13,987 bases of DNA from contig JACKBR010000086.1 of assembly GCA_020634495.1 (NCBI GenBank), forward strand, positions 1-13,987, given 5' to 3'. Under the pieces are notes generated by a model. That model did no database searches, had not been told where the DNA came from, and saw only the letters and a program-made list of their open reading frames with translations. Positions 705-13,987 of the stretch are shown one piece after another. Origin of the DNA: Ardenticatenaceae bacterium (GTDB lineage: Bacteria; Chloroflexota; Anaerolineae; Promineifilales; Promineifilaceae). The translations under genes and the position numbers were made by a program. How positions within the stretch are numbered: the first letter of the stretch is position 1; each line of letters starts with the position of its first letter.

Positions 705-737
705 GCGCGAACTGTACCACAAAACGGTTTACTGCGC

Positions 738-769
738 TACGTATACCAGCATATACCAAAGTATACGTA
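738..769. promoter_or_regulatory. Triple GTATAC box array / 9-bp inverted repeat upstream of parA
   Basis: TATAC occurs at 742-746, 752-756 and 762-766, exactly 10 bp apart, so all three lie on one face of the helix. The outer boxes extend into a perfect 9-bp inverted repeat: TACGTATAC at 738-746 and GTATACGTA at 761-769. The array ends 34 bp upstream of the parA start. ParA operons are often autoregulated by ParA or ParB at such operators. This is a candidate operator, inferred from position and symmetry. Confidence 0.5.
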
Positions 770-1627
770 CAATCGAAAGTAAACATAATCTATTAGCCGA
801 GGGTCCCGATCAAAATTGTGTCTACAGCTCAGAAATTTATATCCTCACATATCTAATGCCCCATAAATATTGACCCTCTGATAAAATCGATGGCATCATA
901 GCTGTTTCCCCAAACCACCTCTTTTGCATCATCATTAGCAATACACAACTCTCACTGCGACAAACCCGATCAATGTACCGGACACCCAAATTCAGCTCCA
1001 ACCGGATCTCGATTAAAGCGCACGCGACATAAGAGGCTCAGCATCAGTTTCCTGCCTTTGAGCAACATCCAAAAACAACAGCTAAACGGCCGTATTCAGG
1101 AGAGCAGGGGGCTCTACGAAAAACAACGGCCGTTTACCACCGCCACCCATTCCCTACCCACGCCAGCACAACCGGGGCAGGGCTCTCGCCACCAGTAGAT
1201 GTAAGCGATGTTGGGGGCTTGCAGACAGCTTCCTTAGCCAACACTGTGGCCCAAGCCATGCTTCAGGCCCTCCCAATGCCCTGCTGGACGAGGTTGAGGC
1301 TAATGACTATGTCGCCGATTCCGGCAAAGAGGGTGCCCTGCGCACAAGTGAGAACAAACTTGCCCAAGGAGTGGAGCGGCCGTTTTTTAGATTGAAACTT
1401 GGCTACAGTTGGTTGTTGGTGAGGTGATGCAGGCTGAAGGGTAGGTACAAAGCGGGTGGGGAAGTTGCCATGAGCGTATGAGCTGTAGAACAAGCCCAAG
1501 GTTTGGTTTGCTTGATTGCTGCTGGCGACAGGGGAAGCTGGGCAACGCTAGATAGACGACGCAGACATGGGCCTATCGACGAGTACATGGCCGCTTACGT
1601 GATGGCGGTTGGTGAATGGGGCCGAAT
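770..1627. other. Gene-poor stretch, possibly containing decayed coding sequence
   Basis: No ORF here has a recognisable domain. Two ACGGCCGT palindromes lie exactly 40 bp apart at 1086-1093 and 1126-1133. On the plus strand, 1190-1430 reads as protein-like sequence but only by switching frame near the ATG at 1258: one frame gives GGLQTASLANTVAQAML, and the next gives ALLDEVEANDYVADSGKEGA followed by a stop near 1427. Neither part matches a family I know. It may be a frameshifted gene remnant or chance. Confidence 0.3.
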
Positions 1628-2554
1628 TCATTTAACCGGTGGCCAGTTGTTCATCTGGCGGTGTGCTGCCAGGGCCAGCTGCACCGTCTGAAACTGAATC
1701 TCGACCGTTTCGTGAATAACCAGACCGTATCCGCCGGCCATCGTTACGGCAACCGGCAGTTGATCCTGCCGACACCGGGTCAGGACTAGCTGGTCACGCG
1801 CGGCGATGCCAGCTTTAGTCAGCGCCAGCCGCCCCAGGCGATCCCGCTCATACACATCTGCGCCAGCCAAATAGACAACCATGTCTGGGCGGGACAAAGC
1901 GAGAGCGCTGTTCAGCCCAGTGCGCAGCGCGGTCAGATAGGCGTCATCCCCTGTCTTGTCCGGCAGCCCGATATCTAGGTCACCGGGAATTTTTCGGTAG
2001 GGGAAATTCTTTTCACCGTGAATAGAGAAGGTAAAGATGGTCGGGTCTCTCTGAGCGATTTCGGCCGTGCCGTTCCCCTGATGCACGTCGCAATCCACAA
2101 CCAGCGCTCGCCGGATGCGCCCTTCCGCCTGCATCACTCGCAGGGCCACCATGACGTCGTTGAACATGCAAAAGCCTTGCCCCTCCGCCCGGCAGGCGTG
2201 ATGGGTACCGCCTCCCAGGGAGACAGCGATGCCTTCCTGCAGGGCGAAATGGCAAACGGCCGTTGTGGCTCCTATCGAGTAGCGCACCCGTTCGACCAAT
2301 TCCGGTGACCAGGGCAGACCGACGCGGCGGATTTCTTCGCGAGAGAGACGCCCGTTGAGAACACGATCCACATATTCGAGCGTGTGCGCTTTATACAAAT
2401 GGGGTAGGGGAGCTGGGGAAGGGGGATGCAGATCGATGCCGGTCAAGCCGTTGGCGGCCGTGATGCGCTGGCGCAGCAGGCTGTATTTTTCCACCGGGAA
2501 ACGATGTCCAGCGGGCAGAGGGAAAGTGACATGGTCGTAGGTGAATATCTTCAC
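1628..2554 (-). CDS. Histone deacetylase family protein (class IV/AcuC-like amidohydrolase)
   Basis: A zinc-dependent deacetylase of the arginase/deacetylase fold. Bacterial members remove acetyl groups from lysine side chains or small amines in the cytoplasm; the substrate here is unknown. Numbering from the GTG start, it shows the His pair GGGTHHA (H118, H119), the zinc ligands D154 and H158 in VDCDVHQGNG, the third ligand Asp in AGADVYERD (230-238), and MAGGYG (272-277). At 308 residues it has normal length. I chose the GTG at 2554 because family members begin at the KIFTYDHVTFPLPAGHRFP segment; a longer frame from a TTG at 2608 adds 18 residues that look unrelated. No strong ribosome-binding site precedes either start. 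It stands alone, with the decayed mobile patch upstream and the gene-poor stretch downstream. It carries an ACGGCCGT site at 2256, like the resident genes. The family is sure; the biological role is not. Confidence 0.92.
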   Translation of the reverse strand: MKIFTYDHVTFPLPAGHRFPVEKYSLLRQRITAANGLTGIDLHPPSPAPLPHLYKAHTLEYVDRVLNGRLSREEIRRVGLPWSPELVERVRYSIGATTAVCHFALQEGIAVSLGGGTHHACRAEGQGFCMFNDVMVALRVMQAEGRIRRALVVDCDVHQGNGTAEIAQRDPTIFTFSIHGEKNFPYRKIPGDLDIGLPDKTGDDAYLTALRTGLNSALALSRPDMVVYLAGADVYERDRLGRLALTKAGIAARDQLVLTRCRQDQLPVAVTMAGGYGLVIHETVEIQFQTVQLALAAHRQMNNWPPVK

Positions 2555-2714
2555 AGGTTTGTCTGGAAGCAATAATTTATATTTGAGCGTCGTTAATAAA
2601 ATAAGCAACTCTTCGGGAAGCTAGTCGCCAATCGTCTTTTCACCAGGCGAAAGGGAACTTGCAGGAAGTATAATTCAATTTAATGAGAACCTAGGGTATC
2701 AAAATTTAGAATGG

Positions 2715-3110
2715 ATGATCACTAGTCTGACTTTGCAGCCAGTCATTCAACTTCATGGCGCTTGGCAAGAAATCCAGGCACCATTGACACAGCCTTGACC
2801 GCCCAGCTAATCTGGGCAGCCTACGCTTTAGTGACATGTTCACCCTCTATAGCTGATTCCGGCTGATCCAGACGCTTACCAAACTCCGCTATTTGTTCGC
2901 CATGCTCAGTTAGTGTGGTATTTTGCCGCGTCTCTAGAATCATCTGTTGTCTGGCCATGTGCACGTCAGCTATCGCCATCTAGTAAGCTTGTGTTGAGGG
3001 AGAGAATCTTGTGTCAGAAGCTCCTTAATGTCTAATTCCGCTTCCAGGGTCAAACGTCCGTCTTGAAATGCTTCAGCCAGAGCCTTGTAACATTCACGTT
3101 GTATCGAATG
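2715..3110 (-). pseudogene. Remnant of phage antirepressor gene (C-terminal half)
   Basis: Read on the minus strand, this stretch matches the intact antirepressor at 4012-4851 from about its residue 119 to its residue 260. RECYKALAEAFQDGRL corresponds to RCYRVLHEAFQEGRL, MARQQMILETR to MARQQLLLESR, and AAQISWAVKAV to AMQISQAIKTI. The match needs a frame change near 2985 and passes in-frame stops, one a TAG just before the MARQQ block and one a TAG at 2821-2823, so the copy is dead. Its N-terminal half is missing and a truncated transposase occupies that place. The 170-residue frame at 2970-3482 is an artefact joining the two. It points away from the intact copy, so the pair was head to head. 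Confidence 0.8.
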
Positions 3111-3443
3111 AGTCGCTACCAACTGCTCCAATCCAGGGCTGCAAGCCCGATCCCCACCGACCATTGCGTGATGGTATGCTGGGCAATGACAACTATCTCT
3201 GCGATGACCAGTAGGGCAACCCGCTGAAAGGCCCGTTCCTGTCTGAAAATATGCTGATGTGCCAGAAGTAATTAGGCAGGCTTTTACCAAAGTCAGTTCT
3301 ACTGACAGAAAGACGCAAAGGCTACCGCCTGGAATCTTTGCTCCTTCGCGTGAAATTTTCTTGCGATTTACTATTTTTGGTAAAAGCGTAAGTAATTGGG
3401 CTAAATGCTTGAGATGATTTTCATTCTGAGAGATAGTTATCAT
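3111..3443 (-). pseudogene. Truncated transposase N-terminus (copy A), interrupted by a 112-bp insertion
   Basis: The frame starts at the ATG at 3443 with MITISQNENHLKHLAQLL, close to MTTIPQNENLLKHLPQLF of copy B. It is broken by the mini-element at 3278-3389. Removing that element plus one 12-bp repeat (124 bp) joins the two halves in frame, restoring FRQERAFQRVALLVIAEI and then ITQWSVGIGLAALDWSSW up to a TAG at 3116-3118. That pattern resembles the N-terminal region of DDE transposases I recall from Chloroflexota; the IS family is not certain. The catalytic region is absent because the sequence runs straight into antirepressor remnant near 3110. Non-functional. Confidence 0.65.
3278..3389. 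mobile_element. MITE-like 112-bp element with terminal inverted repeats and 12-bp target duplication
   Basis: The ends are AGGCTTTTACCAAA (3278-3291) and TTTGGTAAAAGCGT (3376-3389), inverted repeats matching at 13 of 14 positions, with the inner 11 perfect. They are directly flanked by AAGTAATTAGGC (3266-3277) and AAGTAATTGGGC (3390-3401), a 12-bp direct repeat with one mismatch. The related copy B lacks the insert and keeps a single version of the site (near 3805-3825), so the empty site is visible. The interior has small inverted repeats (GTCAG...CTGAC at 3292-3306; GCAAAG...CTTTGC) and no ORF. It must rely on a transposase encoded elsewhere. Target duplications of 10-13 bp are typical of some IS4-group elements, which is only a hint. 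Confidence 0.75.
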
Positions 3444-3529
3444 GGGAAGTGCCTTATTTGGTTTATATTTGATTGAAATCAACAGTAAACGAGTACACGT
3501 CCTTTTTTAAAAAATAGCCACACTATAGA

Positions 3530-3554
3530 GTGCGTGGCCATAACGGCCACGCAC
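3530..3554. repeat. Perfect 10-bp inverted repeat at the junction of IS copies A and B
   Basis: GTGCGTGGCC (3530-3539) and GGCCACGCAC (3545-3554) are perfect reverse complements around ATAAC (3540-3544). The left arm is the upstream terminus of transposase copy A and the right arm is the terminus of copy B, so this is best read as two IS ends meeting back to back across a short target sequence. No T-run follows, so it is unlikely to be a terminator. Confidence 0.6.
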
Positions 3555-3964
3555 CCATACTTTTGTATTTTAAAGAAGCCTCGTGCAGTTGCGTGCGCTT
3601 CTTTTGTTCAAAATGGGCAAGAAAGGGCTGATAATTGTCAGGCAAGGGCGGCTTAGGTAGACAAGCTGAATCCAATGAAACCTCTCTTGGTCAGCGAGAG
3701 TTAGGATTAATTGGGTAAAACGGTCTGCCAGGCAAAAACGGCTATCTCTGCGATGACCGGCAGATTTATCCGTTGGAAGACTTGTTCCTGTTTGAATATT
3801 GGGCATTGGGCTTGAAACAATTGGGGCAAATGCTTGAGAAGATTTTCGTTTTGAGGGATAGTTGTCATAGGAAGCAACTCGTTTTGTTTGTTTTTGGTCG
3901 AAACCTACATTAAACGGATACACTTCCTTTTTCAAAAAAGGCAACCTACAGGATGGGTGCGCGT
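3545..3964 (-). mobile_element. 420-bp deletion derivative of an insertion sequence (copy B)
   Basis: The two ends share inverted sequence: CGCACCCAT near the left end (3551-3559 region) and ATGGGTGCG near the right end (3953-3961). The element is bordered by ATAAC at 3540-3544 and again at 3965-3969, a possible 5-bp target duplication. It contains only the start of a transposase. Its right-hand 120 bp, from AAATGCTTGAGAAGATTTTC to the end, is homologous to the right end of copy A, including a TACAC-TCCTTTTT block. It is too short to be autonomous. Confidence 0.55.
3570..3868 (-). pseudogene. Transposase N-terminal fragment (copy B), frameshifted
   Basis: From the ATG at 3868 the frame reads MTTIPQNENLLKHLPQLF, then FQRINLPVIAEIAVFAWQ, and stops at 3707. 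The neighbouring frame continues with RFTQLILTLADQERFHWIQL and on to a stop at 3570. Placed after AWQ, that segment fits the ITQ...GLAALDWSSW part of copy A, so one frameshift around 3720 breaks the gene. The rest of the transposase is missing. It sits just upstream of, and divergent from, the intact antirepressor gene. Confidence 0.6.
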
Positions 3965-3982
3965 ATAACACGTGCTCCCATC
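3952..3982. repeat. Imperfect inverted repeat at the right end of IS copy B
   Basis: GATGGGTGCGCGT (3952-3964) and ACGTGCTCCCATC (3970-3982) are inverted repeats at 11 of 13 positions, again around ATAAC (3965-3969). The left arm is the end of copy B. The right arm looks like a worn IS end of the same type. It ends 29 bp before the antirepressor ATG and may lie in that gene's leader. Confidence 0.5.
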
Positions 3983-4011
3983 AAAGAAAGACGAAAGCAA
4001 GAGACAATATT

Positions 4012-4851
4012 ATGGCAGAAAAAGCATTAGTGCCCGTTGAGCAAAAAGAGGTGCTGTTCTATGATGATGAAATCCCGGCTGTTCTCATTCAGATGGGGGA
4101 TGAACAGGACATATATATTCCACTTCGCCCTATCTGCGATCATCTTGGTCTTGACTGGTCTGCTCAAACACGTCGTGTCCGTCGTGACCCGATCCTGAGC
4201 AAGTATGTCAGGTTTGTTGCCATTACAGCAACAAACCCCGAAGATGCCCAAAAAGGTGGCAATCCGAACATGCTCTGTCTTCCGCTTGATTACCTGAACG
4301 GTTTTCTCTTTGGCATTTCGGCAAACCGCGTCAAGGATGATCTGCGCGACCGCGTCTTGTTATACCAGGAACGATGCTATAGAGTGCTGCATGAGGCGTT
4401 TCAGGAGGGTCGGCTGACAGCGGTAACGGAGTTCGAAGAGCTGCTGTCGAGCGATACACCAGCCGCTCAAGCGTATAAAATGGCGCAGGCAATTATGCAG
4501 ATGGCCAGGCAGCAGCTACTCCTGGAATCTCGCCTGGAAGCGCAAGATAATCAGCTAATTGACCATGAGCAGCGCCTGGAAGAACTGGAGGCGACGCTGG
4601 GAGACACCGGCCGTTTCGTTACCCCTGATCAGGCAATGCAAATTAGCCAGGCAATCAAGACCATTGCCGGTGAAATCCAGAAGCGTACAAAGCAAAATGA
4701 ATACGGAAAGATTTACGGGCAACTGTACCGGCAGTTTGGTATTACCAGCTATAAGCAGCTGCCGGCCAGTAAATTCAATGATGCAATGATGTGGCTAACG
4801 AACATGTTTCGCAACATCACTGGCGCGACGGGAGACGAAGTGCCGTTTTAG
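4012..4851 (+). CDS. Phage-type antirepressor protein (P22_AR_N plus ORF6C-like)
   Basis: A 279-residue protein with the two-part build of phage antirepressors, which bind and inactivate prophage repressors or act in phage gene control. Residues 13-130 fit the P22 antirepressor N-terminal domain, with IPLRPICDHLGLDW (36-49), the RRVRRDP segment (54-60), LPLDYLNGFLFGI (90-102) and YQERCYRVLHEAF (118-130). Residues 160-197 are rich in E, L and Q and look like a coiled coil. Residues 202-265 (VTPDQAMQISQAI, YGKIYGQLYRQFGITSYKQLP, FNDAMMWL) fit an ORF6C-type C-terminal domain. The ATG at 4012 follows AAGCAAGAGAC, a weak ribosome-binding site. It is the only complete plus-strand gene in the window. 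No other phage genes surround it, so it is an orphan rather than part of a visible prophage. The decayed partner copy at 2715-3110 is its paralog. Whether it is expressed behind the IS debris is unknown. Confidence 0.88.
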   Translation: MAEKALVPVEQKEVLFYDDEIPAVLIQMGDEQDIYIPLRPICDHLGLDWSAQTRRVRRDPILSKYVRFVAITATNPEDAQKGGNPNMLCLPLDYLNGFLFGISANRVKDDLRDRVLLYQERCYRVLHEAFQEGRLTAVTEFEELLSSDTPAAQAYKMAQAIMQMARQQLLLESRLEAQDNQLIDHEQRLEELEATLGDTGRFVTPDQAMQISQAIKTIAGEIQKRTKQNEYGKIYGQLYRQFGITSYKQLPASKFNDAMMWLTNMFRNITGATGDEVPF

Positions 4852-5353
4852 GTAGTTGTCTCGCCATACCCACTTGGTACACGTTACGCTTGTGCAGCAA
4901 GCCCTAGAAGTGATTTGTCTGCGGCTCAAGTTCATTCATGGTTGCTGCAAGCTCTTTTCCGGTACGTTTGCTCTTGAAAAGTGTGAAGTGCCGACCCAAA
5001 GGTGACCCAATTCATTACCCCCAAACTGCAAGCTATAGTAGATACGGTTTAACAGTATCCTGACCGATTCTCTCGCAGCAGGCTGGCGAAGATGCTGGCA
5101 GGGGCAAAATTCTGGAAAGACACAAGCTTTTCGGAATACGGCCGTTTTGCCAGCCCCACAAAAAAGAACAACGAACATAGAAGTCTTGGTGCAGCTGGGC
5201 TAAACGGCCGAAACCAACTTATAGTCCGTCAACGCCCGTTGGAAGAAACTGGGTAGTCGGGTGGCAGTAACGATTTCGCATAGTAGTTCGATACTCGCGG
5301 CACACCTTTCTCTAGAAGTATGAGTCAATGACAACCCCCTTTCCCACAAAATA
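4852..5353. other. 502-bp stretch with no convincing gene
   Basis: No ORF has a recognisable domain or start. An ACGGCCGT site lies at 5138-5145 and another CGGCCG near 5205. Short inverted pairs are present, for example GCAGCAA near 4895 and TTGCTGC near 4942, but nothing forms a strong terminator after the antirepressor stop at 4851 or after the minus-strand gene ending at 5354. Confidence 0.4.
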
Positions 5354-6100
5354 TTAAGAATTTCCATATTGGCAATAGGCAGCTACAGGGCAGACGGAGG
5401 CCACCGGACAGGTTGGCTGGTTGCTTGGCCGTCGCTTACACCCCAGACGCCCCAAAGCATCCAAGGCGGGGAAGATTTCGGCTGACACTTTGTCCCCATC
5501 AATCATAAAGGCATTGAGTGCCCGGCTGGCCGCCTTTGAAACCGGCACGGGGAGACGATCTGCCCCCTTGATGGGTTGGTCGCCTGCCTGCGCCAGCCCG
5601 TGCAGCCAGCGAGGTGCCGTCTGCGGGCCAGATAATACGGGGAAAGTTGTTTTGCTTTCCTGAAGCATTGCCAGCAGTGCTGGGGCATCATAAGCATGAT
5701 CGTCTAGCAGCTGCCGGACTGAGCCACCGGCTCGCATCACCAGCGCCTGCCCCAGCCGCTGCCAGACGGTGACGTCGCTCTTCTTACGGGCAATTCCTGG
5801 CTGCTGCAGACGGTCGGCGAAGTCAGCTGGTTTGGCATAAGCCAGGAACTGGGGTGCAAAAAGTTCTGGGTCGGTAACGGCCGTTTGCCGGGCCGCCTGC
5901 CACAAAGGAACTGGGTCGCGCCCTCCGCTAAGGCCAAAGACAAGTGTCAGATAAGCCAGGTGGCGATCTTCACCCCGCGCCATGCCCGCTGGTAGAGGCC
6001 AGGTGGGGTCTGCCTCTCCCCAGAGAGCGCCGCTATCGTAGGCAGCCAGCAGGGTGGTGCGAATGGCTTGACGCGCTTTAGCTGAATCAGGGATGCTCAT
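5354..6100 (-). CDS. Four-cysteine protein, possibly HhH-GPD DNA glycosylase-like
   Basis: A 248-residue cytoplasmic protein that I do not recognise with certainty. Four cysteines close the chain at 221, 231, 237 and 243, in a C-X9-C-X5-C-X5-C pattern within GCKRRP...CPVASVCPVAAYC. This recalls the C-terminal iron-sulfur loop of endonuclease III/MutY-type glycosylases, whose usual spacing is C-X6-C-X2-C-X5-C. Residues 152-170 (TFPVLSGPQTAPRWLHGLA) and 183-190 (LPVPVSKA) resemble the region before the active site in helix-hairpin-helix glycosylase-like proteins. No clear catalytic Lys/Asp signature is visible, so activity is open. Its ATG at 6100 lies inside the end of the lipoprotein gene (14-nt overlap), suggesting translational coupling in one transcript. 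QTAV at 72-75 is encoded over an ACGGCCGT site. A plain zinc- or Fe-S-binding structural tail is the main alternative. Confidence 0.6.
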   Translation of the reverse strand: MSIPDSAKARQAIRTTLLAAYDSGALWGEADPTWPLPAGMARGEDRHLAYLTLVFGLSGGRDPVPLWQAARQTAVTDPELFAPQFLAYAKPADFADRLQQPGIARKKSDVTVWQRLGQALVMRAGGSVRQLLDDHAYDAPALLAMLQESKTTFPVLSGPQTAPRWLHGLAQAGDQPIKGADRLPVPVSKAASRALNAFMIDGDKVSAEIFPALDALGRLGCKRRPSNQPTCPVASVCPVAAYCQYGNS

Positions 6101-6701
6101 GGGATTGGTTTGTGAGGAACTCTGCCTGCGGCGATTCCTTAACGAGATCGGCCTGCACCCACCCTAGCGTGCCGTCTTCTATGGCCTGGACCAGCCACCA
6201 GCCACCGTCATCGGGCTGCTTAACCGCCACTGGCGAGATGTTGGGCAGTTGGGCAACTTCCTGGCCGGCCGGTGCCGCAAACAAGGGCACTGTTTCACGG
6301 TCAGCCTGGTAAAGATACGCCACCCGCCGCACGTAATAGTCGGAAATCCAGCCGGTGTCGCCATTGACCGTTTCGACCCGGTAAAAGCGCTGCAAATTTT
6401 GCGGGCCGCCATGCCGGATTTCCAGCACCGCTGCCGGGATGCCCGTATGGACAATGGCCCCAGGAGCTGCCGCCGCATCTGGCTCTTGCAGCAGCGTCAG
6501 TTCGTGCTCGGCGATAAGGCCATGCTCATCAACGCCGCTGAGCAGCACCCACAGCGAACCTTCCTGCTGGGCTAGCGTTTCTCCTGAGGAGTCGGAGATG
6601 GCAACGGCCGTTGGAATTGGGGTGGGGACAGCCGTTTCGACATCGGTACAGCCAGCCAGAAAAGCGGTACAGAGTAAGAATAATGATAAAAACTGTTTCA
6701 T
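6087..6701 (-). CDS. SH3-domain lipoprotein
   Basis: A 204-residue exported lipoprotein of unknown function. From the ATG at 6701 it begins MKQFLSLFLLCTAFLAGC, a signal peptide ending in a clear lipobox (LAGC), so Cys18 should be lipidated. A longer frame from 6743 adds 14 residues ahead of the signal and is unlikely. A short Thr/Pro-rich linker (TAVPTPIPTAV) follows. Two SH3b-like segments then appear: one around FYRVETVNGDTGWISDYYV and one around GGWWLVQAIEDGTLGWVQADLV, with the Gly-Trp-Ile/Val pattern of bacterial SH3 repeats that bind peptide or cell-wall material. The ribosome-binding site is poor. The gene overlaps the downstream four-cysteine gene by 14 nt and follows the lamin-tail gene by 89 nt across an 18-bp inverted repeat. 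A shared process with the cytoplasmic neighbour is not obvious. Confidence 0.75.
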   Translation of the reverse strand: MKQFLSLFLLCTAFLAGCTDVETAVPTPIPTAVAISDSSGETLAQQEGSLWVLLSGVDEHGLIAEHELTLLQEPDAAAAPGAIVHTGIPAAVLEIRHGGPQNLQRFYRVETVNGDTGWISDYYVRRVAYLYQADRETVPLFAAPAGQEVAQLPNISPVAVKQPDDGGWWLVQAIEDGTLGWVQADLVKESPQAEFLTNQSHEHP

Positions 6702-6711
6702 GGGGATTCGG

Positions 6712-6764
6712 GTGAGGCGTGAAACGTGATTTCGTTTTGTCATGTCTCACGTTTCACGCCTCAC
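6712..6764. repeat. 18-bp perfect inverted repeat between lipoprotein and lamin-tail genes
   Basis: GTGAGGCGTGAAACGTGA (6712-6729) and TCACGTTTCACGCCTCAC (6747-6764) are perfect reverse complements with a 17-nt loop. Its unit, CGTGAAACGTGA-like, is typical of small dispersed intergenic repeats. It lies 27 bp after the lamin-tail stop and 11 bp before the lipoprotein start. Without a T-run it is not a standard terminator, but an RNA hairpin here could limit read-through or protect the upstream message. Confidence 0.7.
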
Positions 6765-6790
6765 GGCCGTTGTATAAATGCCGCCTTAAC

Positions 6791-9496
6791 CTACGGATTT
6801 GCCGCGCCTTTTGTCGTATTTGTTGTCATGCTGCCCGCCCAGGTGCCCCCGTCCGGTGTACGATACCAGGATCTATTTTTTGCACTGCTGCCAAAGGTGT
6901 AGCTGTCTACTACCGTACTGCCGTCCGGCAGCAGCAGACGCGCATCGTCACCGCCATTATTGAAGACATTGCTGGTATCCAGGGTCCAGTAGCCCCCAGC
7001 CGTAATCGTGGTGCTGGCTGGAACCTGGATGGGCGAGGCACCGCCTCCGGCAATATCATCCAGCCACATGCCGGAAATTTCAATGTCCTGGGGTGTGGGA
7101 TTATACAGTTCCACCCATTCTGGGGTGCTGCCATTGGGATTGGGCATGATTTCATTAATGACAATGTCATCCATACCGTAGGCCGAGGCCGGGTCGCTGG
7201 CAACGTAAGCATTGCCATTAATGGTGTAGTTAACCCCATCCGACGATTGCAGAATAATGTCGCCGTCCACAATCACCGTGCCGGTGTAATCTGTTGCCGT
7301 GGTGCAATAGTTGGTTAGATAGACATCGCCAGTTCCCGTAAGTGCATCTACCACCCGCTGCGATGGATGACCAAAGGTATTGCTGCCGCAAGAAATGGCC
7401 GAAGCGTCGGGGTTGAGCGTGTCAACGTAAGCCTGGCTGGTCGAGTGATTCGAGCCATGATGGTTGGCCCGCAGCACGTCTACCTGGCCAAAGCGTCCGG
7501 CCAGAACCGCCTCCACGTTGTTATAGGTATAGCCAAACTGACTGGTGGCGTATTCGCCATCGGAGTCGCCAGCGGTGGCGTAATCGATCAGGCCATAGCG
7601 AATCTTGAGGCCGATAGAGTAATCGTTCTCGCTGGGCGGCGTTGCGTCGCCGGTGTGGTCGCCTTGAATTGGCGTAATACCATCCACCAGGGTGACGCCG
7701 TCACCATCCACCTGGACAATTTCCACCAGAGCCCCCGTATCAGGCGGGTCGATCTGGGTGGTGGAACCCAGCTGAGCCAGTTCGTGAATGGGATAGATAT
7801 TGCTGTTGGCCGGATTGGTCGCGTAGCAGATCCAATTGCGGCTGGTGCCTGAGCTGGTGCCTGCATTGTGCCACTCAATTTCCAGGTCGGGGTCGCACAG
7901 ACCATCAACGGCCCCGCCGTTTAGCCCGTCTACCCATACACCGGCGTCACGATCAACAATTTTATCAAAGGTGATACCTTCCGTTTCGATCAGCCCCCAG
8001 ATGCCACCATAACCGGCGTAACCAATATGATCCAGGTGATGGTGGGAGAGAATGCCAACATTCACATGACTGCCACCAGTGATGGCCCGAATCTTCTGGG
8101 CAATCAAGGCGGCCCCGGCGCCGCTGTTCCAGTTCGCTTCGCGCACGTCGATGAGGATGCTGTAGCCAGAGGGAAAGATGATGAGCTGGCTGTCGCCCTG
8201 TTCGACATCAAAAATGCGGACTTCAAACGTGCCTGGCGTCCACGGGGTATCTCCGGTGCCCACGTTGGGCGAGCCTTTGGTGGGGGTGTCGCTCTCCACG
8301 CCGCTCCAGGTGCCGCCATCGGGGAACCGGTAATAGGAATAGTCCGCCGTGGCCGAGCCGTAGCTGGTGCTGTCTAAGACGGTTGTTTGGCTGGGATCGA
8401 TGAAGCGCACGTCGTCCCCGCCATTGTTGAGCAGGCTGCTGAACTCCAGCACGTAGAAGCCCCCGGGGCCAATGACCGTGCCGGCAGGAATCGGCTTGGG
8501 CGCACCGCCGCCAGCGGCGATGTCATCAATGTAATGGCCGGAAATGTCTAGCGCGGTGGTAGTGTTGTTGTACAGTTCCACCCACTCAGTGGCGCTGTTC
8601 GCCACGTATTCGTTGATAACCACCTCCCCGACACCTGGGGGTGGGGTATTGCTGCTCCCTTTGGTGGGCGTGTCGGTCTCTTCTCCGCTCCAGGTACCGC
8701 CGTCAGGTGTACGGAACCAGGAATGTTCGCCAGTGGCCGAGCCGTAGCTGGTACTGTCCAGCACCGCTTGGGACGGGTCGAGGAAGCGGACATCATCGCC
8801 TCCGTTGTTGAGCAAGTTGGTAAACTCCATAACATAGAAGCCACCGGCGGGTATAACGGTGCCGGGCGGAATGGCCTGAGGCGCGCCACCGCCACCGGCC
8901 ACATCGTCGATGTAATGGCCGTCCAGGTCCAGATCGCTGCCGGTGGTATTGTACAGTTCCACCCATTCGGTGACGCTGCTGTTGGCAACATATTCGTTGA
9001 TAAGCACATCACCGGGGCCAGGTGGGTTACCGCCACCGGGATTCGCTGCGCCTTTAGTTGGTGAACTGCTCTCGGTGGGGCTCCAGGACCCACCGTCAGG
9101 GGAACGATACCAGGAATAGTCAGCTGTGGATGAGCTGTAGCTTGTGCTGTCCAGTGCGGTTTGGGCCGGATCCAGAAAGCGCACGTTGTCACCGCCGTTG
9201 TTGAGGAAGCTGCTGAATTCCATCACATAGTAGCCACCAGCAGGGATAATGGTGTTGCTGGGGATTACTTTAGGCGCACCGCCACCGCTGGCGATGTCGT
9301 CAATGTAGTGACCGGATAGATCCAGGTCAGTGCCGGTAGTGTTGTACAGCTCTACCCATTCCAGGCTGCTGTTGGCCACATATTCGTTGATGAGGACGTC
9401 GCCAGCGCCAGGTGGATTGGCTGCGGAGACAGCGGGGATGGATAAAAAGAGGATCGCGATGAGGACAGCGGTGGAAGTCAGACGCCGGTTAATCAT
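6791..9496 (-). CDS. Secreted lamin-tail / ComEC-like metallo-beta-lactamase protein
   Basis: A 901-residue exported protein. Residues 1-25 form a signal peptide ending in SAVSA-like sequence (PAVSAA). Three lamin-tail domains follow at about 29-155, 159-282 and 286-410, each starting with VINEYVAN/EWVELYN and ending SWYR-PDGG-W and TPTKG. A metallo-beta-lactamase domain spans about 424-770 with SHHHLDHIG (484-492), NDYSIGLKIRYG (624-635), TAGDSDGEY (641-649) and ANHHGSNHST (677-686), the pattern of the ComEC/Rec2 C-terminal hydrolase. A fourth lamin-tail domain (773-901) ends the chain. Family members of this hydrolase type are linked to DNA or phosphoester hydrolysis; lamin-tail domains in bacteria accompany secreted nucleases and phosphatases. 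AAGGAG lies 9 nt before the ATG at 9496. No membrane anchor or sorting signal is seen, so release or surface binding through the lamin-tail domains is inferred. No ACGGCCGT site occurs in its 2.7 kb, unlike the neighbours. Confidence 0.9.
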   Translation of the reverse strand: MINRRLTSTAVLIAILFLSIPAVSAANPPGAGDVLINEYVANSSLEWVELYNTTGTDLDLSGHYIDDIASGGGAPKVIPSNTIIPAGGYYVMEFSSFLNNGGDNVRFLDPAQTALDSTSYSSSTADYSWYRSPDGGSWSPTESSSPTKGAANPGGGNPPGPGDVLINEYVANSSVTEWVELYNTTGSDLDLDGHYIDDVAGGGGAPQAIPPGTVIPAGGFYVMEFTNLLNNGGDDVRFLDPSQAVLDSTSYGSATGEHSWFRTPDGGTWSGEETDTPTKGSSNTPPPGVGEVVINEYVANSATEWVELYNNTTTALDISGHYIDDIAAGGGAPKPIPAGTVIGPGGFYVLEFSSLLNNGGDDVRFIDPSQTTVLDSTSYGSATADYSYYRFPDGGTWSGVESDTPTKGSPNVGTGDTPWTPGTFEVRIFDVEQGDSQLIIFPSGYSILIDVREANWNSGAGAALIAQKIRAITGGSHVNVGILSHHHLDHIGYAGYGGIWGLIETEGITFDKIVDRDAGVWVDGLNGGAVDGLCDPDLEIEWHNAGTSSGTSRNWICYATNPANSNIYPIHELAQLGSTTQIDPPDTGALVEIVQVDGDGVTLVDGITPIQGDHTGDATPPSENDYSIGLKIRYGLIDYATAGDSDGEYATSQFGYTYNNVEAVLAGRFGQVDVLRANHHGSNHSTSQAYVDTLNPDASAISCGSNTFGHPSQRVVDALTGTGDVYLTNYCTTATDYTGTVIVDGDIILQSSDGVNYTINGNAYVASDPASAYGMDDIVINEIMPNPNGSTPEWVELYNPTPQDIEISGMWLDDIAGGGASPIQVPASTTITAGGYWTLDTSNVFNNGGDDARLLLPDGSTVVDSYTFGSSAKNRSWYRTPDGGTWAGSMTTNTTKGAANP
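8267..9412 (-). repeat. Three tandem lamin-tail domain coding repeats (about 375-380 bp each)
   Basis: The coding units lie at about 9032-9412, 8651-9022 and 8267-8641, with a more diverged fourth at 6794-7180. Similarity is visible in DNA as well as protein: near-identical blocks encoding LNNGGDDVRF and ALDSTSY recur in each. This points to fairly recent internal duplication and makes the region prone to copy-number change and misassembly. Confidence 0.8.
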
Positions 9497-9505
9497 AAAA
9501 AACTT

Positions 9506-9511
9506 CTCCTT
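9506..9511 (-). promoter_or_regulatory. Ribosome-binding site AAGGAG of lamin-tail gene
   Basis: AAGGAG on the minus strand with a 9-nt spacer to the ATG at 9496. It is one of the two strongest Shine-Dalgarno matches in the window and fixes the start that gives a complete signal peptide. Confidence 0.75.
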
Positions 9512-9911
9512 ATTGTCGAACTGCTAAAGAAAAGGTCACGCGCACAGGCGTGATTTTACAAAACTAAGCAAGTGTGGCGTTGTAAGTTACTTCGCGTGTG
9601 GACTTTAGACGCACGCTGCCCGAATGAATGCCGCAGGACGGCCGTCGTGGGGCGTTCATCTGAAGGATTAAAAAACTCTGTTTGATGATAGTAGCGAGCA
9701 TCGCCAACAGTGTAGCATATTTTTGCAAAAGGGATAACGTAACAAATAAGGCTGTGGCGTATTGTGCTTGTATGAACAAATGAGCAAACTTTCATTGGAC
9801 AGCCACTTATGACTTTGTTATCATATTTGCGTGGCCATACCTCCCCCAAACTGGCACGAGAGAAACGCGACTGGAACATACTATCCACTGTTGGCCACAG
9901 GTGGGTGGTGA
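9512..9911. other. Intergenic stretch with no gene seen
   Basis: A 142-residue minus-strand frame crosses this region and runs into the polymerase 3' end, but it has no recognisable motif. An ACGGCCGT site lies at 9638-9645. A short imperfect palindrome (GCGTGTGG...GACGCACGC, about 9594-9616) resembles dispersed intergenic repeats. The promoter of the lamin-tail gene should lie near 9520-9600, but I cannot place -35 and -10 boxes with confidence. Confidence 0.4.
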
Positions 9912-9948
9912 AACGAGGTAAGATTGGCGCCCGCCACCTTGCCTCGTT
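9912..9948 (-). terminator. Hairpin just downstream of the polymerase gene
   Basis: AACGAGGTAAGAT (9912-9924) and ACCTTGCCTCGTT (9936-9948) form an inverted repeat pairing at 11 of 13 positions. On the minus strand it begins 2 nt after the polymerase stop codon. No strong T-run follows, so it is a candidate terminator or mRNA 3'-end stabiliser for the three-gene operon. Confidence 0.45.
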
Positions 9949-9950
9949 CG

Positions 9951-12254
9951 TTATTTGGTAGACGAACACCATGAGGTAACACAAGCAAACACATTCTCCT
10001 GATATATAGATAAGGGAAGTTGGTTGGCTTCCGCAAGTACCGCCAGCCGCAGGTCTGCTTCAGACAGGTTTAATGGCTGTGCAACGGCACTAGCCGCCCG
10101 CAGCAGCAACGTAACATAGCGGTCTGTATCCAGCACGGCCGTATCCACCCCCACCGCTAAATCCCAGGCATGAACCCTCGCCTCGCCCCGCACGTACCAA
10201 AAGCGAATCCGCTGCCCCGGACGGCGCGGCTTGCCAATGGCCGCTAGCTGCATCGCTGCCCGGCAGGCCGGGGAGGGTGTACGGTACGCTTCAATCTCCC
10301 GGCTGAGCCGTTGGGAAACCAGCAGATGTTCCAGAGGAATACGGCCGTTCCGCAAATCATCCACCTGCTGGCGAAGGAAGGCAATCAGGTCAGGCAGCGC
10401 CGTGGTGAGCGGCTGCCCGTTGGGGAGTTTGGCCAGCCGCTTAATCATGGCCAGCTGCACCTGAGCAATCCAGGGCGGCGTGTCATGCCGCCGGGTTTCA
10501 ATGCCCCGCGTCTTAATCTCCCCGCTTTGGAACACGCCAAAATAGCGGTTGGCCACCGGCACCCGCTCATCTAGTCGAGAGGGCAGAAACGCCACCCATT
10601 TGTAAATGCCCTCCAACGCAATGGGCAGGCCCGTGCGCCGGGTAATTTCCGCCAGCAACGGCCGTACCTGTCCGTTTTGGTTCACCCCCGGCTTTTTCAC
10701 CCACAGACCATCGACATACATGTGCAGCACGTCATAGCCCAAATCTTCGGCCGCTTCCTTGGCCCGCAGCAAACACTCCCGGCCGAAAGCCGTCACCGCC
10801 TCATGAGACTCAATCCGGCCAAAGCGAGCGTTTTTGTAACCCAGGTAGCCAAAGCAAACCACCAGCAGCCACTTCAGGGCAGCGGCCCGCGCCTTCAGCG
10901 CCGGATAGCGGCAGTCCAGGGCGCTCATCCCGGCCAACTGCTCCTTGATGGCCATCCGCTTCACCAGCAACGGCCGTAACGTGCGCGGCACCAATCCCAC
11001 CCTGGACAAATCTACCGGCACGTCCAGTTCAGGAATCTGTTCACTGCTCTCATTCGCTACCCCCACCGTTTCTGGAGAGACGTTGAAACGCACCATGATG
11101 CTGGGATACATCGAGACAAAATCAATCTCCACCACCTCCTCGTGCAGGCCGATGGTGGGCTGGTAGACCAACCCGCCCCGGTCTGACCGGATGAGCTGGG
11201 CGGCGGTCTTGAACCCTTCCGCCTGCTGCTTCTGGTACGGCACCAAAATGCCCCGCCGCAGCGCCGCCTGCATTTGCAAGGCCGTCACGCCAGAGCCAGG
11301 CGATTTACGAGCCATCTCCTGCACCGGCAGCCCCGTCACCCGCGCCTGCTCAAACGCCCCGTGCAAACCATATTCGCCATACATCATGGCGTTGTGCTGG
11401 TCGATGTGATAACGGCCGTGCAAATGCACCTGCTGCCCCCGGTAGACCACCTGACCATAGGTAAAGTAGCTGTTTGCCTGCCGGTGGATAACCGGCTTGT
11501 TCTCATCCCGATTCAGGTTGAACCAGTCTGCCCCCAGCGCAACGGCCGTTTCCAACAGCAGCGGCAAGAGCCAGGTGTCGCCAAAGCGGGTGAGGATGAC
11601 ATCCGGGTCTACCCGTTTGACGGTGGCCTGAAGGCTGGTTAACAACAAGTTTAAGGGATGCACGGGAAGCTGGCGGCGAGAACGGCCGTCATCTATCCAA
11701 AGAAACGTTGGTTCCCGGTGGCTGGGGTCTTCATTGGGTTCGATGGTCAAACTCTTTAATGGCGGCTGGCTGGGGGCTACGTCCCAGCGGGATTCCAGGG
11801 GCGTGATCTGCTGGATACGGCCGTTCTCGTCCACCACAACCTCGCAGTGGCACAAAGGGAAAATGTTGAAAACGGCCGCATAGCGCAGCCCCAGCGGAAT
11901 GTCGGCGTCGTAATAAGTCAGGTCGGGGAAGCGACGTGCCACCTGGCGAAACAGGCGGGGCTGAAGCGCAGGATTGGCCACCTCAACCGCCAGCACATCC
12001 AGCGGCCCGGCAAACAAATCTTCGCGTCTGACGCGGCTGAGGCTGAGCTGGCCCGGTGGGACACCAGCCAGCGCCTCCCGCTGCAAAAAACGCCACAGCT
12101 CACGCAGCCGGGGAAACGGCCCGTGGGCGTAAAAGGTGATGGGAAAGCGCTGGGTCAGCCGCAGGCGACGGCCGTTTTCTGCCAGCAGCCACAGCACCAG
12201 GCCATCGGCCTCAGCGGCGTAGACATCCAGCAGCCAGCCGCGCTGTTCATTCAT
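9951..12254 (-). CDS. polB: Family B DNA polymerase with degenerate active-site motifs (PolB2-like)
   Basis: A 767-residue family B DNA polymerase-like protein. Motif A is DFVSMYPS (378-385), with the catalytic Asp and the steric-gate Tyr kept. Motif B is K461...FGYLG (461-472): Lys is present but the usual NS-Y-G reads VV-F-G. Motif C is HMYVDGLW (511-518) where YxDTD is expected, so one Asp remains and the second is Leu. The exonuclease region (about 165-330) is also altered: LTIEPNE in place of the Exo I DIE, and FGDTWLLP in Exo II without the second Asp. YKW (551-553) and GIETRRHDTPPW (584-595) fit later palm and thumb motifs. Such erosion is known in the PolB2 branch of archaeal and bacterial family B enzymes, often suspected of a repair or lesion-bypass role. 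The ATG at 12254 overlaps the 81-residue gene by 8 nt. Nine ACGGCCGT sites lie in the gene. Family B is certain; the PolB2 assignment is from memory. Confidence 0.9.
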   Translation of the reverse strand: MNEQRGWLLDVYAAEADGLVLWLLAENGRRLRLTQRFPITFYAHGPFPRLRELWRFLQREALAGVPPGQLSLSRVRREDLFAGPLDVLAVEVANPALQPRLFRQVARRFPDLTYYDADIPLGLRYAAVFNIFPLCHCEVVVDENGRIQQITPLESRWDVAPSQPPLKSLTIEPNEDPSHREPTFLWIDDGRSRRQLPVHPLNLLLTSLQATVKRVDPDVILTRFGDTWLLPLLLETAVALGADWFNLNRDENKPVIHRQANSYFTYGQVVYRGQQVHLHGRYHIDQHNAMMYGEYGLHGAFEQARVTGLPVQEMARKSPGSGVTALQMQAALRRGILVPYQKQQAEGFKTAAQLIRSDRGGLVYQPTIGLHEEVVEIDFVSMYPSIMVRFNVSPETVGVANESSEQIPELDVPVDLSRVGLVPRTLRPLLVKRMAIKEQLAGMSALDCRYPALKARAAALKWLLVVCFGYLGYKNARFGRIESHEAVTAFGRECLLRAKEAAEDLGYDVLHMYVDGLWVKKPGVNQNGQVRPLLAEITRRTGLPIALEGIYKWVAFLPSRLDERVPVANRYFGVFQSGEIKTRGIETRRHDTPPWIAQVQLAMIKRLAKLPNGQPLTTALPDLIAFLRQQVDDLRNGRIPLEHLLVSQRLSREIEAYRTPSPACRAAMQLAAIGKPRRPGQRIRFWYVRGEARVHAWDLAVGVDTAVLDTDRYVTLLLRAASAVAQPLNLSEADLRLAVLAEANQLPLSIYQENVFACVTSWCSSTK

Positions 12255-12492
12255 TTAACAGATGGAGCAGCTGATCTATTTGCTTCTGCTGTTCCAAGAG
12301 CATGGCCAGCAGCACCGCCTCAAAAGGCAGGGCGTGGTTGGCCTGGCTAATGGCGGCCGTATGCAGGCGGGCAGCGGCGAAGAGAGCGTCAAAGTGGCGC
12401 TGGTCTGCCCGGCGCAGGGTGCGGCGAAAGTTGGCAAACGCCGTTTGCTCTTGCTGAATGAGTTGGGTGGTGGTTTGTAAGGTTCTACCCAT
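12247..12492 (-). CDS. Small alpha-helical protein of unknown function in polymerase operon
   Basis: An 81-residue, probably all-helical protein with no motif I can name. The first half (MGRTLQTTTQLIQQEQTAF, then RRTLRRADQRHFDALF) is basic and polar. The second half (LPFEAVLLAMLLEQQKQIDQ) forms an amphipathic leucine-rich helix that could mediate binding to a partner. The start is well supported: AGGAG at 12500-12504 lies 7 nt before the ATG at 12492. It overlaps the RecA-like gene by 8 nt (ATGGGTAG) and the polymerase gene by 8 nt (ATGAATGA), so the three are almost certainly translated together. By position it may bridge the RecA-like protein and the polymerase, but that is inference. Confidence 0.8.
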   Translation of the reverse strand: MGRTLQTTTQLIQQEQTAFANFRRTLRRADQRHFDALFAAARLHTAAISQANHALPFEAVLLAMLLEQQKQIDQLLHLLNE

Positions 12493-13039
12493 TCAACCGC
12501 TCCTGAAAGAGTGCGGGCTGGTGTACGGCCGTTTCCCCCGCTTCCCGTATGAGAAGATGATCGGCAATCTTTTCTAATGGATGGCGCAATCCAGCCCGGT
12601 CTGGCTGCTGGGCTGGCGGTGGCCGCAGCGACACGATGACGGGAGCCAGGCGGCGCAGACGGTGCAAATGGCAGACAACCTGCCGCAGGAGGCGGTGGGC
12701 TTCCTGGAGATCGACGCTTTCATCATAAAAGGTAGCCAGCAGGTCTAAAATGAGGGTGGGCTGGGCCGAAACGGCCGTTTGTTCCAATAAAGTAACCACC
12801 TGATAACAGGTGAAAGCACGGGCAAGCTGGATGCGATTGAGCGTTTCGGTGAGCTGCACCGTCTGGCGGCGCACGTACCGCGCCACGTACAGCGCATTGT
12901 AGCTGTTGCCGCCGTCCAGGACGCGCACCGGCCCCTGCAAGGCCAGACGCGCCGACAGCTCCAGCATCGTCATGCGTTCGGCCCGCGGGCCAACAACAAG
13001 ACCAATTTGGCCGGGAATGAGTTCAGGTAGCAAGGACAT
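12485..13039 (-). CDS. RecA/RadA-like protein with inactivated Walker A
   Basis: A 184-residue, single-domain RecA-fold protein. It starts LPELIPGQIGLVVG, as RecA/RadA cores do. The P-loop at 17-24 reads GPRAERMT, with Arg and Met where Gly and the catalytic Lys should be, so ATP hydrolysis is unlikely. TLNRIQLARAFTCYQVVTLL (66-85) matches the RadA/Rad51 style, and TLILDLLATFYDE (95-107) holds a Walker B-like Asp. It is much shorter than RecA and lacks the C-terminal domain and any clear L2 loop. I chose the ATG at 13039, preceded by GGTGG, because the core begins there; a GTG at 13114 would add 25 unrelated residues across the box array. First gene of the operon, overlapping the next by 8 nt. 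ImuA, the degenerate RecA-like partner in bacterial mutasomes, is a functional analogue rather than a proven relative. Confidence 0.75.
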   Translation of the reverse strand: MSLLPELIPGQIGLVVGPRAERMTMLELSARLALQGPVRVLDGGNSYNALYVARYVRRQTVQLTETLNRIQLARAFTCYQVVTLLEQTAVSAQPTLILDLLATFYDESVDLQEAHRLLRQVVCHLHRLRRLAPVIVSLRPPPAQQPDRAGLRHPLEKIADHLLIREAGETAVHQPALFQERLNG

Positions 13040-13083
13040 GCTGCCACCATAGCAGCGGCGGGATGGGGCGACAATCGCTTTTA

Positions 13084-13125
13084 GGGTGATTGTGGGGTGA
13101 ACTGTGGGTGTCACCCTATGGGTGA
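13084..13125. promoter_or_regulatory. GGGTGA box array upstream of the RecA-like/polymerase operon
   Basis: GGGTGA occurs at 13084-13089, 13095-13100 and 13120-13125, with a variant GGGTGT at 13106-13111. The first three are 11 bp apart, one helical turn. The last forms a perfect inverted repeat TCACCC-TAT-GGGTGA (13111-13125), and GGGTG-T-CACCC (13106-13116) is another. The array fills the gap between the LuxR-type stop codon and the operon, 45-86 bp before the RecA-like start. It is a likely operator; the binding protein is not known. Confidence 0.5.
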
Positions 13126-13581
13126 TTACCGCATATCTGGATAGGTATGCGGCGAGGAGTCCAGATGTGGGTCTTCTCTTTTCCAGTCAGAAAAATTCCA
13201 AGAAGCGAGGAGCAACTGCAATTCTCCCTTACTCCCAGCAGCAAAGGTTTGTAGAACTTGCCGGAGATGGCTCTTGATGGTGTTGACCGAAACTGACATC
13301 TTCTGCGCGATTTCCATGTTGCTGTAGCCCAGGCAGGCATAAGCGGCCGTATCCTGCTGGCGGGGTGTCAACGTTTCCCAACGCAGCAGATTGTCGGTGG
13401 TGGCGTGGTGTTCGCCAATGGCAAAGGAAAGCAGGCGGTTGACCGTCTCGGCGATGGTCAAGCCTTCTTCATGGGCAATGTCTTCTATTAGGGGGATGAG
13501 GTTGGGGTCGACTTCGGCAAAGCTTTCTGGCCGAATATAGCCATTTTGCTTGAGGAAATTATCGAAGAGCTGTGGGGACAT
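13126..13581 (-). CDS. LuxR/GerE-type HTH transcriptional regulator
   Basis: A 151-residue regulator. Residues 69-128 form a LuxR-type helix-turn-helix: ETLTPRQQDTAAYACLGYSN, then MEIAQKMSVSVNTIKSHLRQVLQ as the recognition part. The N-terminal 65 residues (LFDNFLKQNGYIRPESF, then IPLIEDIAHEEGLTIAETVNRLL) are helical and are not a standard receiver or PAS domain; the segment around 38-55 may itself be a short ribbon-helix-helix- or HTH-like unit. GGTGAG lies upstream of the ATG at 13581. It is in the same direction as the RecA-like/polymerase operon and ends where the GGGTGA array begins, so it may control that operon or itself. The protein family is sure; the target is inferred from position. 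A CGGCCG site sits near 13345. Confidence 0.88.
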   Translation of the reverse strand: MSPQLFDNFLKQNGYIRPESFAEVDPNLIPLIEDIAHEEGLTIAETVNRLLSFAIGEHHATTDNLLRWETLTPRQQDTAAYACLGYSNMEIAQKMSVSVNTIKSHLRQVLQTFAAGSKGELQLLLASWNFSDWKREDPHLDSSPHTYPDMR

Positions 13582-13600
13582 ACATTTCTCACCAAGATGG

Positions 13601-13624
13601 GGTAGCAGTGCGCCTGCTGCTACC
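13601..13624 (-). promoter_or_regulatory. Hairpin in the leader of the LuxR-type gene
   Basis: GGTAGCAG (13601-13608) and CTGCTACC (13617-13624) are perfect reverse complements with an 8-nt loop. The structure lies 20-43 nt before the LuxR-type start, next to its ribosome-binding site. It could be an operator for a dimeric regulator or an RNA element that affects translation. Confidence 0.4.
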
Positions 13625-13768
13625 GGTTGCTCTAAAATTAGAATGTATGTTCCGCACCCACCGGGTCGGGACTATATCACAAGGTAAAGAATTCTCGCCG
13701 TGAAGGGAACGTGAAGTTTGGTATTGAGATATTAGAAGGGGATTGATTTTATTTTGGAAAAGCTCAGT

Positions 13769-13987
13769 TTAACTTGCTAATTTCTTTATCAAACGTACCC
13801 AAGACTGTGTTTTGATCCAACCACTATTTTGTAGTTTTTCAATGATTGATACCCGATTAATTGGCACACTTAATTGTATTGCCGTTTTATTTAGGCCATT
13901 TAACCAGGCCGTTGCTTCGTGTAGCATGGGAGCTAGGTAATCGATATGTTTATCTAGAACCAATGGTCGGCCAATAGTCCCTTTGTT
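13769..13987 (-). CDS. Unrecognised AT-rich gene, 3' end only
   Basis: The frame is open from the right window edge to the stop at 13769, giving 72 residues, so this is the C-terminal part of a longer protein that begins outside the window. It reads GTIGRPLVLDKHIDYLAPML, then AWLNGLNKTAIQLSVPINRV and SIIEKLQNSGWIKTQSW. The GRP start followed by a helical stretch and TAIQLSVPINRVSIIEKL has the feel of a helix-turn-helix, as found near the start of some transposases or in regulators, but no family is recognised. The stretch has far lower GC than the operon next to it and lacks the iterated palindrome, which suggests transfer. No terminator is evident downstream. Confidence 0.5.
   Translation of the reverse strand, partial: NKGTIGRPLVLDKHIDYLAPMLHEATAWLNGLNKTAIQLSVPINRVSIIEKLQNSGWIKTQSWVRLIKKLAS

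Follow-up and report, generated by a model that had tools for sequence, protein, structure and literature searches.

A PolB2 mutasome operon of Chloroflexota and its proposed SOS relay through a small LuxR-type protein

The closest described counterpart of the system treated here is the PolB2 mutasome of Timinskas, Timinskas and Venclovas (January 2025), whose main text (PMC11791011) presents the operon from archaea and bacteria and models its products as a PolB2-iRadA-(PPB2)3 mutasome. According to that text, bacteria show the single order iRadA-PPB2-PolB2 with a PPB2 that begins MGRT, most PolB2 proteins lack the first Asp of the DxD motif and have a dead exonuclease, iRadA often carries a beta-clamp motif, and archaeal PolB2 is an active enzyme on which targeted mutagenesis depends. 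The neighbours reported there for PolB2 operons are lexA, SRAP, DUF72 and orc1/cdc6, and some bacterial operons adjoin lexA (PMC11791011; PMC4104785); within the main text of PMC11791011, this lexA neighbourhood is all that describes how the bacterial mutasome is switched, function having been shown in archaea. Here we report the computational analysis of such a locus in a 13,987-nt stretch of DNA from an Ardenticatenaceae bacterium (contig JACKBR010000086.1 of assembly GCA_020634495.1, positions 1 to 13,987; "the window" below). The nearest source-named protein, at 86% identity, comes from an Ardenticatenaceae metagenome-assembled genome, in line with a Chloroflexota origin. The analysis points, with good probability, to a Chloroflexota PolB2 mutasome under a private two-step SOS relay, running from LexA to a LuxR-type activator and from the activator to the mutasome. 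The mutasome itself is published; a LuxR-type relay for it was not found described, and our literature search (supplements aside) met no LuxR-type gene described together with PolB2.

The window operon is certainly a bacterial PolB2 mutasome of this published kind, its three genes being open reading frames (ORFs) on the reverse strand. They encode iRadA, an inactive RadA/Rad51-like mutasome subunit of 184 residues (12485..13039), PPB2 (partner of PolB2), 81 residues long with the start MGRT (MGRTLQTT..., 12247..12492), and PolB2, a family B DNA polymerase of the G2 group with 767 residues (9951..12254). The initial annotation, made from the sequence alone, had described three genes on one strand with 8-nt overlaps at both junctions and a strong ribosome-binding site for the middle gene. 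The coordinates agree (12485-12492 for iRadA/PPB2, 12247-12254 for PPB2/PolB2), and the Shine-Dalgarno sequence AGGAG of PPB2 is read at 12500..12504 on the same strand (CTCCT on the forward strand), 7 nt ahead of the ATG. Its suggestion of a PolB-based mutasome with a degenerate RecA homologue, parallel to RecA-containing mutasomes, matches the G2-group PolB2 mutasome in the main text of PMC11791011, with which the window shares gene order, MGRT, the lost DxD Asp, the dead exonuclease, an inactive RadA homologue without N-terminal domain, the iRadA clamp motif and a D(K/R) motif. What the window adds is a proposed dedicated LuxR-type regulator with its own putative operator; LuxR is not among the neighbours named in that main text (supplements aside).

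Three other systems invite comparison. The archaeal PolB2/Dpo2 operon (Sulfolobus; arCOG07300 and an inactivated RadA; PMC4104785) has three homologous genes and is inducible by damage in Sulfolobales, but in archaea the response to damage is linked to Orc1/Cdc6 homologues (PMC11791011), whereas in the window it would be linked to LexA and the LuxR-type protein. ImuA-ImuB-DnaE2 and Pol V mutasomes likewise combine a RecA-like partner and a low-fidelity polymerase with SOS control; their polymerases, however, belong to families C and Y, and the operon examined here encodes a family B polymerase and PPB2, without an ImuB or UmuD homologue. DdiA of Myxococcus xanthus, which activates dnaE2 (PMC12288472), is another transcription factor that promotes an error-prone polymerase under damage, but it is of XRE type, is induced independently of LexA and has several targets, whereas the window protein is of LuxR type.

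Relatives were sought by scanning one genome per species (GTDB); 58 stretches matched and 51 encode a relative (loci are numbered L below, and genomes G). Exact peptide seeds including HMYVDGLW were used, so motif uniformity among the relatives is partly selected; the viral contig L054, which matched over a short stretch only (28%), was dropped and is excluded throughout. All three genes stand in the same order on one strand in 45 of the 51 loci, and the PPB2 profile matches 48 of 54 loci tested. The six incomplete loci comprise one without PPB2 (L006), one without both partners (L016) and four contig ends (L018, L031, L034, L043). A check for the genes lying apart in relatives thus did not refute the initial annotation. 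The 8-nt overlap at the first junction is atypical and, among the loci measured, was seen only in the window and L026.

In taking the three genes as the whole unit, that annotation had the trio right and left an upstream regulatory gene out of the picture. This gene (13126..13581, reverse strand) encodes a small LuxR/GerE-type helix-turn-helix (HTH) protein of 151 residues, which we propose as an SOS-induced, dedicated activator of the mutasome. Its GerE HTH domain scores 36.1 bits against a curated Pfam cut-off of 23.5, 33 of 33 family members match at E<=1, and the structure model shows a canonical NarL-type HTH, the structure comparison covering mainly residues 63-131. Pfam shows no sensor domain. 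A ribbon-helix-helix N-terminus was suspected by eye, with Pfam RHH_1 found in just 3/33 members (best E 0.0037).

The HTH gene belongs closely to the mutasome. Among 46 loci with iRadA, 43 have upstream room, and it lies directly upstream of iRadA in 35 of these; the eight loci without a nearby HTH gene are L029, L033, L039, L040, L041, L042, L045 and L049. When 25 whole genomes were searched, the best HTH match fell at the mutasome in all 23 with a LuxR-bearing locus, and other matches in each genome were at least nine orders of magnitude weaker in E; the exceptions are both in G001, namely a second operon and a remnant. Among 199 genomes sampled from one class, eight hold the HTH protein at E<=1e-20 and seven at E<=1e-40, the latter limit having been chosen after viewing the list, with at most 21 HTH candidates scored per genome; PolB2 was found in 15. 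All seven genomes are among these 15 (p 3e-9), and without G002, G006 and G019, already in the set chosen by PolB2, the figure is 4/4 (p 8e-6). The eighth (G086) holds what appears by eye to be a receiver-domain response regulator and has no PolB2. In a separate observation, the metagenome-assembled genome of L046 carries two PolB2 operons (L001 and L046), and in a short ORF at L046:10967-11395 a portion of the HTH gene is joined to a portion of PolB2, apparently what is left of a mutasome operon that was deleted.

Upstream of the LuxR-type gene lies a predicted LexA box, GAACATACATTC (13641..13652, reverse strand), with one mismatch to GAACNNNNGTTC (GAACN4GTTC). All 36 LuxR-bearing loci, the window among them, have such a box with no more than one mismatch in the 350 bp ahead of the HTH gene, and 30 of these boxes are exact; among randomly drawn pieces of these loci, 28/3370 held an exact box and 335/3370 one with at most one mismatch. 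In the relatives' genomes the box also precedes lexA (exact in 19/20 regions) and recA (at most one mismatch in 17/20, four of them exact). The 35 HTH-iRadA gaps, in contrast, contain no exact LexA box, and three contain a one-mismatch box (1.0 expected); L019 is excluded from all gap counts. SOS control of the locus is very likely on these motifs, and the LexA boxes support control of the mutasome by DNA damage. As an operon neighbour, lexA itself was set aside: LexA is present in 27/29 genomes, and none of the best LexA matches lies inside the fetched mutasome stretch.

The second step of the relay would act in the HTH-iRadA gap, whose median length is 105 nt. All the window elements named here lie on the reverse strand. 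A putative operator, CCACAATCACCCTAAAAGCGATTG (13072..13095), spans -56 to -33 from the iRadA ATG and overlaps a weak -35-like hexamer, TTGTCG (13069..13074), which is followed after a 17-nt spacer by the -10 hexamer TATGGT (13046..13051), ending 6 nt ahead of the ATG; an upstream palindrome, TCACCCATAGGGTGA (13111..13125), is a putative second site of the regulator. An expectation-maximization (EM) motif built on the gaps, leaving out the near-identical L011, L021, L027 and L046, reached a log-likelihood of 250 vs 68.5-82.1 on 20 shuffled sets with equal starts. In leave-one-out tests with close relatives removed, 32/35 chose the same site, and the window operator scored 19.1 (p 0.0033). The palindrome centre in the family consensus is about -43. 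A strict TCACCC N0-6 GGGTGA palindrome had been considered as the general operator and was rejected, being present in only 5/35 intergenic regions (window, L001, L002, L003, L046); the EM motif replaced it as the operator definition, and a looser TCNCCC/GGG element is seen in the consensus of a 28-row alignment.

Promoter hexamers were counted by a best-of search near the ATG, excluding the near-identical L011, L021 and L027 as well as L035, which has no start codon in place. Exactly 6 nt separate the -10 from the ATG in 28 of 31 measured promoters, and the iRadA transcript is therefore predicted to be leaderless. The -35 element is weak in the LuxR-bearing loci, with TTGACA in 0/31 and between one and five matches to it (three or four in 26). 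Some LuxR/NarL-type activators bind near -42. The window protein shares their HTH fold, and its family's site lies over the -35 at about -43, but no sensor or receiver domain was found in it, and its proposed input would be LexA-controlled synthesis. A 93-nt promoter model, from which L009, L011, L012, L021, L027, L035 and L050 were excluded, was run against 26 genomes and matched the mutasome promoter in 21/23 with the HTH gene and 0/3 without; 20 of the 21 were in the model, G028 being outside it, and all other matches had E >=0.02 (at most 150 candidates scored per genome).

Natural experiments bear on the tie between operator and HTH gene. The operator is absent in 7/8 loci without a nearby HTH gene, the exception being L042 (score 13.8, p 0.0033). 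The genome of L042, G028, has its HTH gene on a different contig, preceded by an exact LexA box, and in L042 the nearest one-mismatch box is 425 bp from iRadA. Similarly, L114 (genome G229, class sample) has an operator at -57 of iRadA on contig C5 (score 11.1) with no LexA box near, and its HTH gene, on contig C2, has a LexA box with one mismatch. Neither of these trans cases was used to build the motif, and among the five HTH-carrying genomes outside the motif set, L121 also scores 11.1. The converse is seen in six LuxR-less loci, which have a LexA-like box at iRadA itself (an exact box in L041 and L045; a box with one mismatch in L029, L033 of Ornatilinea apprima, L039 and L049) and no operator in position, and whose genomes gave just weak, generic HTH-profile matches (best E 4e-8 to 1e-16). 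Four of the six have a strong -35 (L029, L039, L041 and L049, but not L033 and L045), and in L029 and L049 a perfect TTGACA-17-TATAAT surrounds the LexA-like box. The operator thus largely follows the HTH gene, including in two genomes with the gene on another contig.

From these data we propose that, upon DNA damage, LexA would leave the box at 13641-13652, allowing synthesis of the small LuxR-type protein; this protein would bind the CCC/GGG operator over the -35 of the iRadA promoter, with its centre at about -43, and would activate the leaderless iRadA-PPB2-PolB2 transcript, so that mutagenic repair would set in late and in a threshold-like manner. We favour activation over repression because the site at -43 lies over a weak -35 and because four of the six loci with a LexA-like box at iRadA have a strong one. 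The likely benefit would be the delay, with mutagenic synthesis following after error-free repair has had its chance. The complex itself may act as a translesion extender in which PolB2 does the synthesis. In the architecture modelled in PMC11791011, iRadA would dock onto PolB2 as adjacent subunits do in a RadA filament and would also hook the beta-clamp, and the MGRT arm of a PPB2 trimer would be placed near the active site. We also consider it probable, though with less assurance than the relay as such, that the sensor-less LuxR-type activator has the leaderless mutasome promoter as its sole genomic target, and that lineages which lost the activator were rewired to direct LexA control. A one-target relay, if true, would be a clear timing control of mutagenesis from one regulator and one operator, with natural controls in the genomes that have a LexA-like box directly at the mutasome and in those with the regulator in trans.

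Several observations weigh against this reading. A p<0.01 was obtained in only 25 of the 35 leave-one-out tests, L009, L010, L011 and L050 have a weak motif, the HTH-carrying L112 (1.1) and L113 (6.1) fail the operator score, and the 93-nt model missed G025 and G034. In the LuxR-less L033 and L045, which have no strong -35, the operator motif scores 6.5 out of position (p 0.04 and 0.06). At L040 there is no HTH gene nearby, operator or LexA box (within the locus, its genome not having been searched for the HTH gene), and at L122 no operator or box is found in about 160 bp, too little upstream sequence for an HTH gene. LexA may also act directly in L107 and L115, where an operator-like site at iRadA is accompanied by a LexA-like box. 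Further, GAAAATATTTTC-like repeats with two mismatches stand at one fixed place between -35 and -10 in L022 and L024-L027, and a one-mismatch form occurs in L030 and L050; direct LexA control may persist in all these loci, whose recurrent GAAA-N4-TTTC-like inverted repeat in the iRadA promoter is possibly a degenerate LexA box of one clade. More distant loci have other proteins in the place of the regulator: L115, L116 and L120 show a different LuxR-type HTH protein before iRadA, with an N-terminal membrane helix by appearance, and L117 another divergent HTH protein. Finally, HTH and iRadA form a single ORF in L019 (L019:734-1807), with the WDFSxW tail of the HTH lost where they meet; this is a fusion or else a frameshift, and it could indicate a structural role.

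Two side observations follow. In L107 the HTH gene and iRadA are separated by a long gene (L107:1269-2768) whose N-terminus resembles a B12-binding radical SAM protein by eye, and an exact LexA box (2811) precedes this long gene. No iRadA was found in L118, L119 and L123.

An unlikely alternative is an ordinary PolB2 mutasome under plain LexA control, in which the HTH gene and the promoter motif are lineage inheritance with no regulatory tie. The LexA-like boxes at iRadA in the six LuxR-less loci and in L107 and L115 would fit it, as do the published bacterial operons that adjoin lexA (PMC11791011; PMC4104785). Yet mere inheritance would not keep operator and HTH gene paired in trans and mostly lost together, and the LuxR-bearing loci have their box at the HTH gene rather than in the gap. 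Equally doubtful is a repressor or brake, with the LuxR-type protein sitting over the -35 and limiting the mutasome after SOS induction in an incoherent loop. The overlap with the -35 is a position that repressors use too, but a repressor would not need a weak promoter, and the -35 is weak in the LuxR-bearing loci and strong in four of the six LexA-direct ones; the trans loci, moreover, keep the operator without a LexA box near iRadA. It is less probable still that the LuxR-type protein is no regulator and forms a fourth, DNA-binding subunit of the mutasome, as its conserved neighbourhood (35/43) and the single ORF of L019 might suggest; that ORF may reflect a frameshift, the HTH gene stands on another contig in G028 and G229, and the operator link would be left unexplained.

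The proteins themselves bear out the assignment. PolB2 matches Pfam DNA_pol_B (5e-30), its two best NCBIfam models are both "type B DNA-directed DNA polymerase" and both under their cut-offs, and its solved-structure relatives include the Pyrococcus abyssi family B enzyme. Aligned with Pol II of E. coli, the window PolB2 retains the motif A Asp (DFVSMYP) and has Tyr for the first DxD Asp of motif C (HMYVDG). Of the residues that we take to be those of the Pol II exonuclease, D156, E158, D229 and Y331 align to E, N, L and R, and D335 alone is kept. The protein thus stands apart from the E. coli Pol II group, a single-subunit enzyme with intact exonuclease and DxD. In a 26-row tree, with very long Pol II and HVTV-1 branches and PolB1/PolB3 outside it, the window PolB2 groups with archaeal PolB2, split from Pol II and HVTV-1 at 100/100. 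Ahead of the palm, the D(K/R) motif reads SDRGG; D[KR] is present in 18 of 54 rows compared, and most others keep the Asp followed by Q, M or L. The PolB2 frame of L040 (L040:6001-8991) is open over about 998 residues and has a proline-rich insertion.

No Pfam family exceeds its cut-off for iRadA or PPB2. The AlphaFold2 model of iRadA (predicted local distance difference test, pLDDT, 92.3) shows a RadA/Rad51 core without N-terminal domain, the best Foldseek matches are RadA, Rad51 and BCDX2 (E 1e-7), and the translation contains no Walker A motif (GxxxxGK[ST]). Near its C-terminus lies the beta-clamp binding motif QPALF (12506..12520, reverse strand); the pattern Q..[LMI][FLM] is found in the final 30 residues of 27/47 iRadA proteins, as against a mean of 3.4 and a maximum of 10 in 500 shuffles.

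Eroded catalytic motifs in both enzymes, as the initial annotation had noticed, are thus real, with the motif C Asp and four of five exonuclease residues replaced and Walker A absent. It had read them as a sign of selection for a structural or specialised role and not of simple decay. Purifying selection is confirmed on three real and intact genes: across iRadA, PPB2, PolB2 and the upstream HTH gene, each compared with four close relatives, the ratio of nonsynonymous to synonymous substitution rates (dN/dS) is 0.07-0.30 in 15/16 comparisons, and in the remaining one, where dS is saturated, pN/pS is 0.14. The structural role fares less well for the polymerase, since the lack of that Asp leaves archaeal PolB2 active (PMC11791011), and the window PolB2 is, by this analogy, probably active as well. 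A decaying or non-functional operon, which the lost residues might suggest, is hardly credible given these dN/dS values, the same replacements throughout the relatives and the activity of archaeal PolB2 and its requirement for targeted mutagenesis (PMC11791011).

The possibility that the operon is phage-borne was also considered for the window and dropped: among nine window proteins scanned, the sole clear phage-type family over its cut-off was a P22-type antirepressor (4012-4851). PPB2 and iRadA have matches among PHROGs families (8.9e-9 and 9.4e-6, respectively), and a tblastn search with PPB2 against a phage collection found nothing. The Leptospira phage records KF114878 and KF114879 (L055, L056) carry the full iRadA-PPB2-PolB2 cassette, annotated as "DNA polymerase family B" with both small genes labelled hypothetical. 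Three viral contigs were found, of which L052 and L053 carry a related PolB2, L053 also with PPB2. PolB2 of L052 lies beside a PHROG match to a minor tail protein (E 6e-13), L053 has possible phage structural neighbours by eye with no PHROG match, and a possible phage structural gene near PolB2 in L040 (L040:4088-4795) has a weak PHROG match (E 0.003), together hinting at phage-borne mutasomes in Chloroflexota. Elsewhere in the window, positions 6791-9496 encode a predicted 901-residue protein with four lamin-tail domains and a central part that resembles a metallo-beta-lactamase by eye. In the region 2970-4851, the antirepressor gene (P22_AR_N and ORF6C, 4012-4851) neighbours ORFs in which pieces of a gene of this type recur, possibly a copy in decay.

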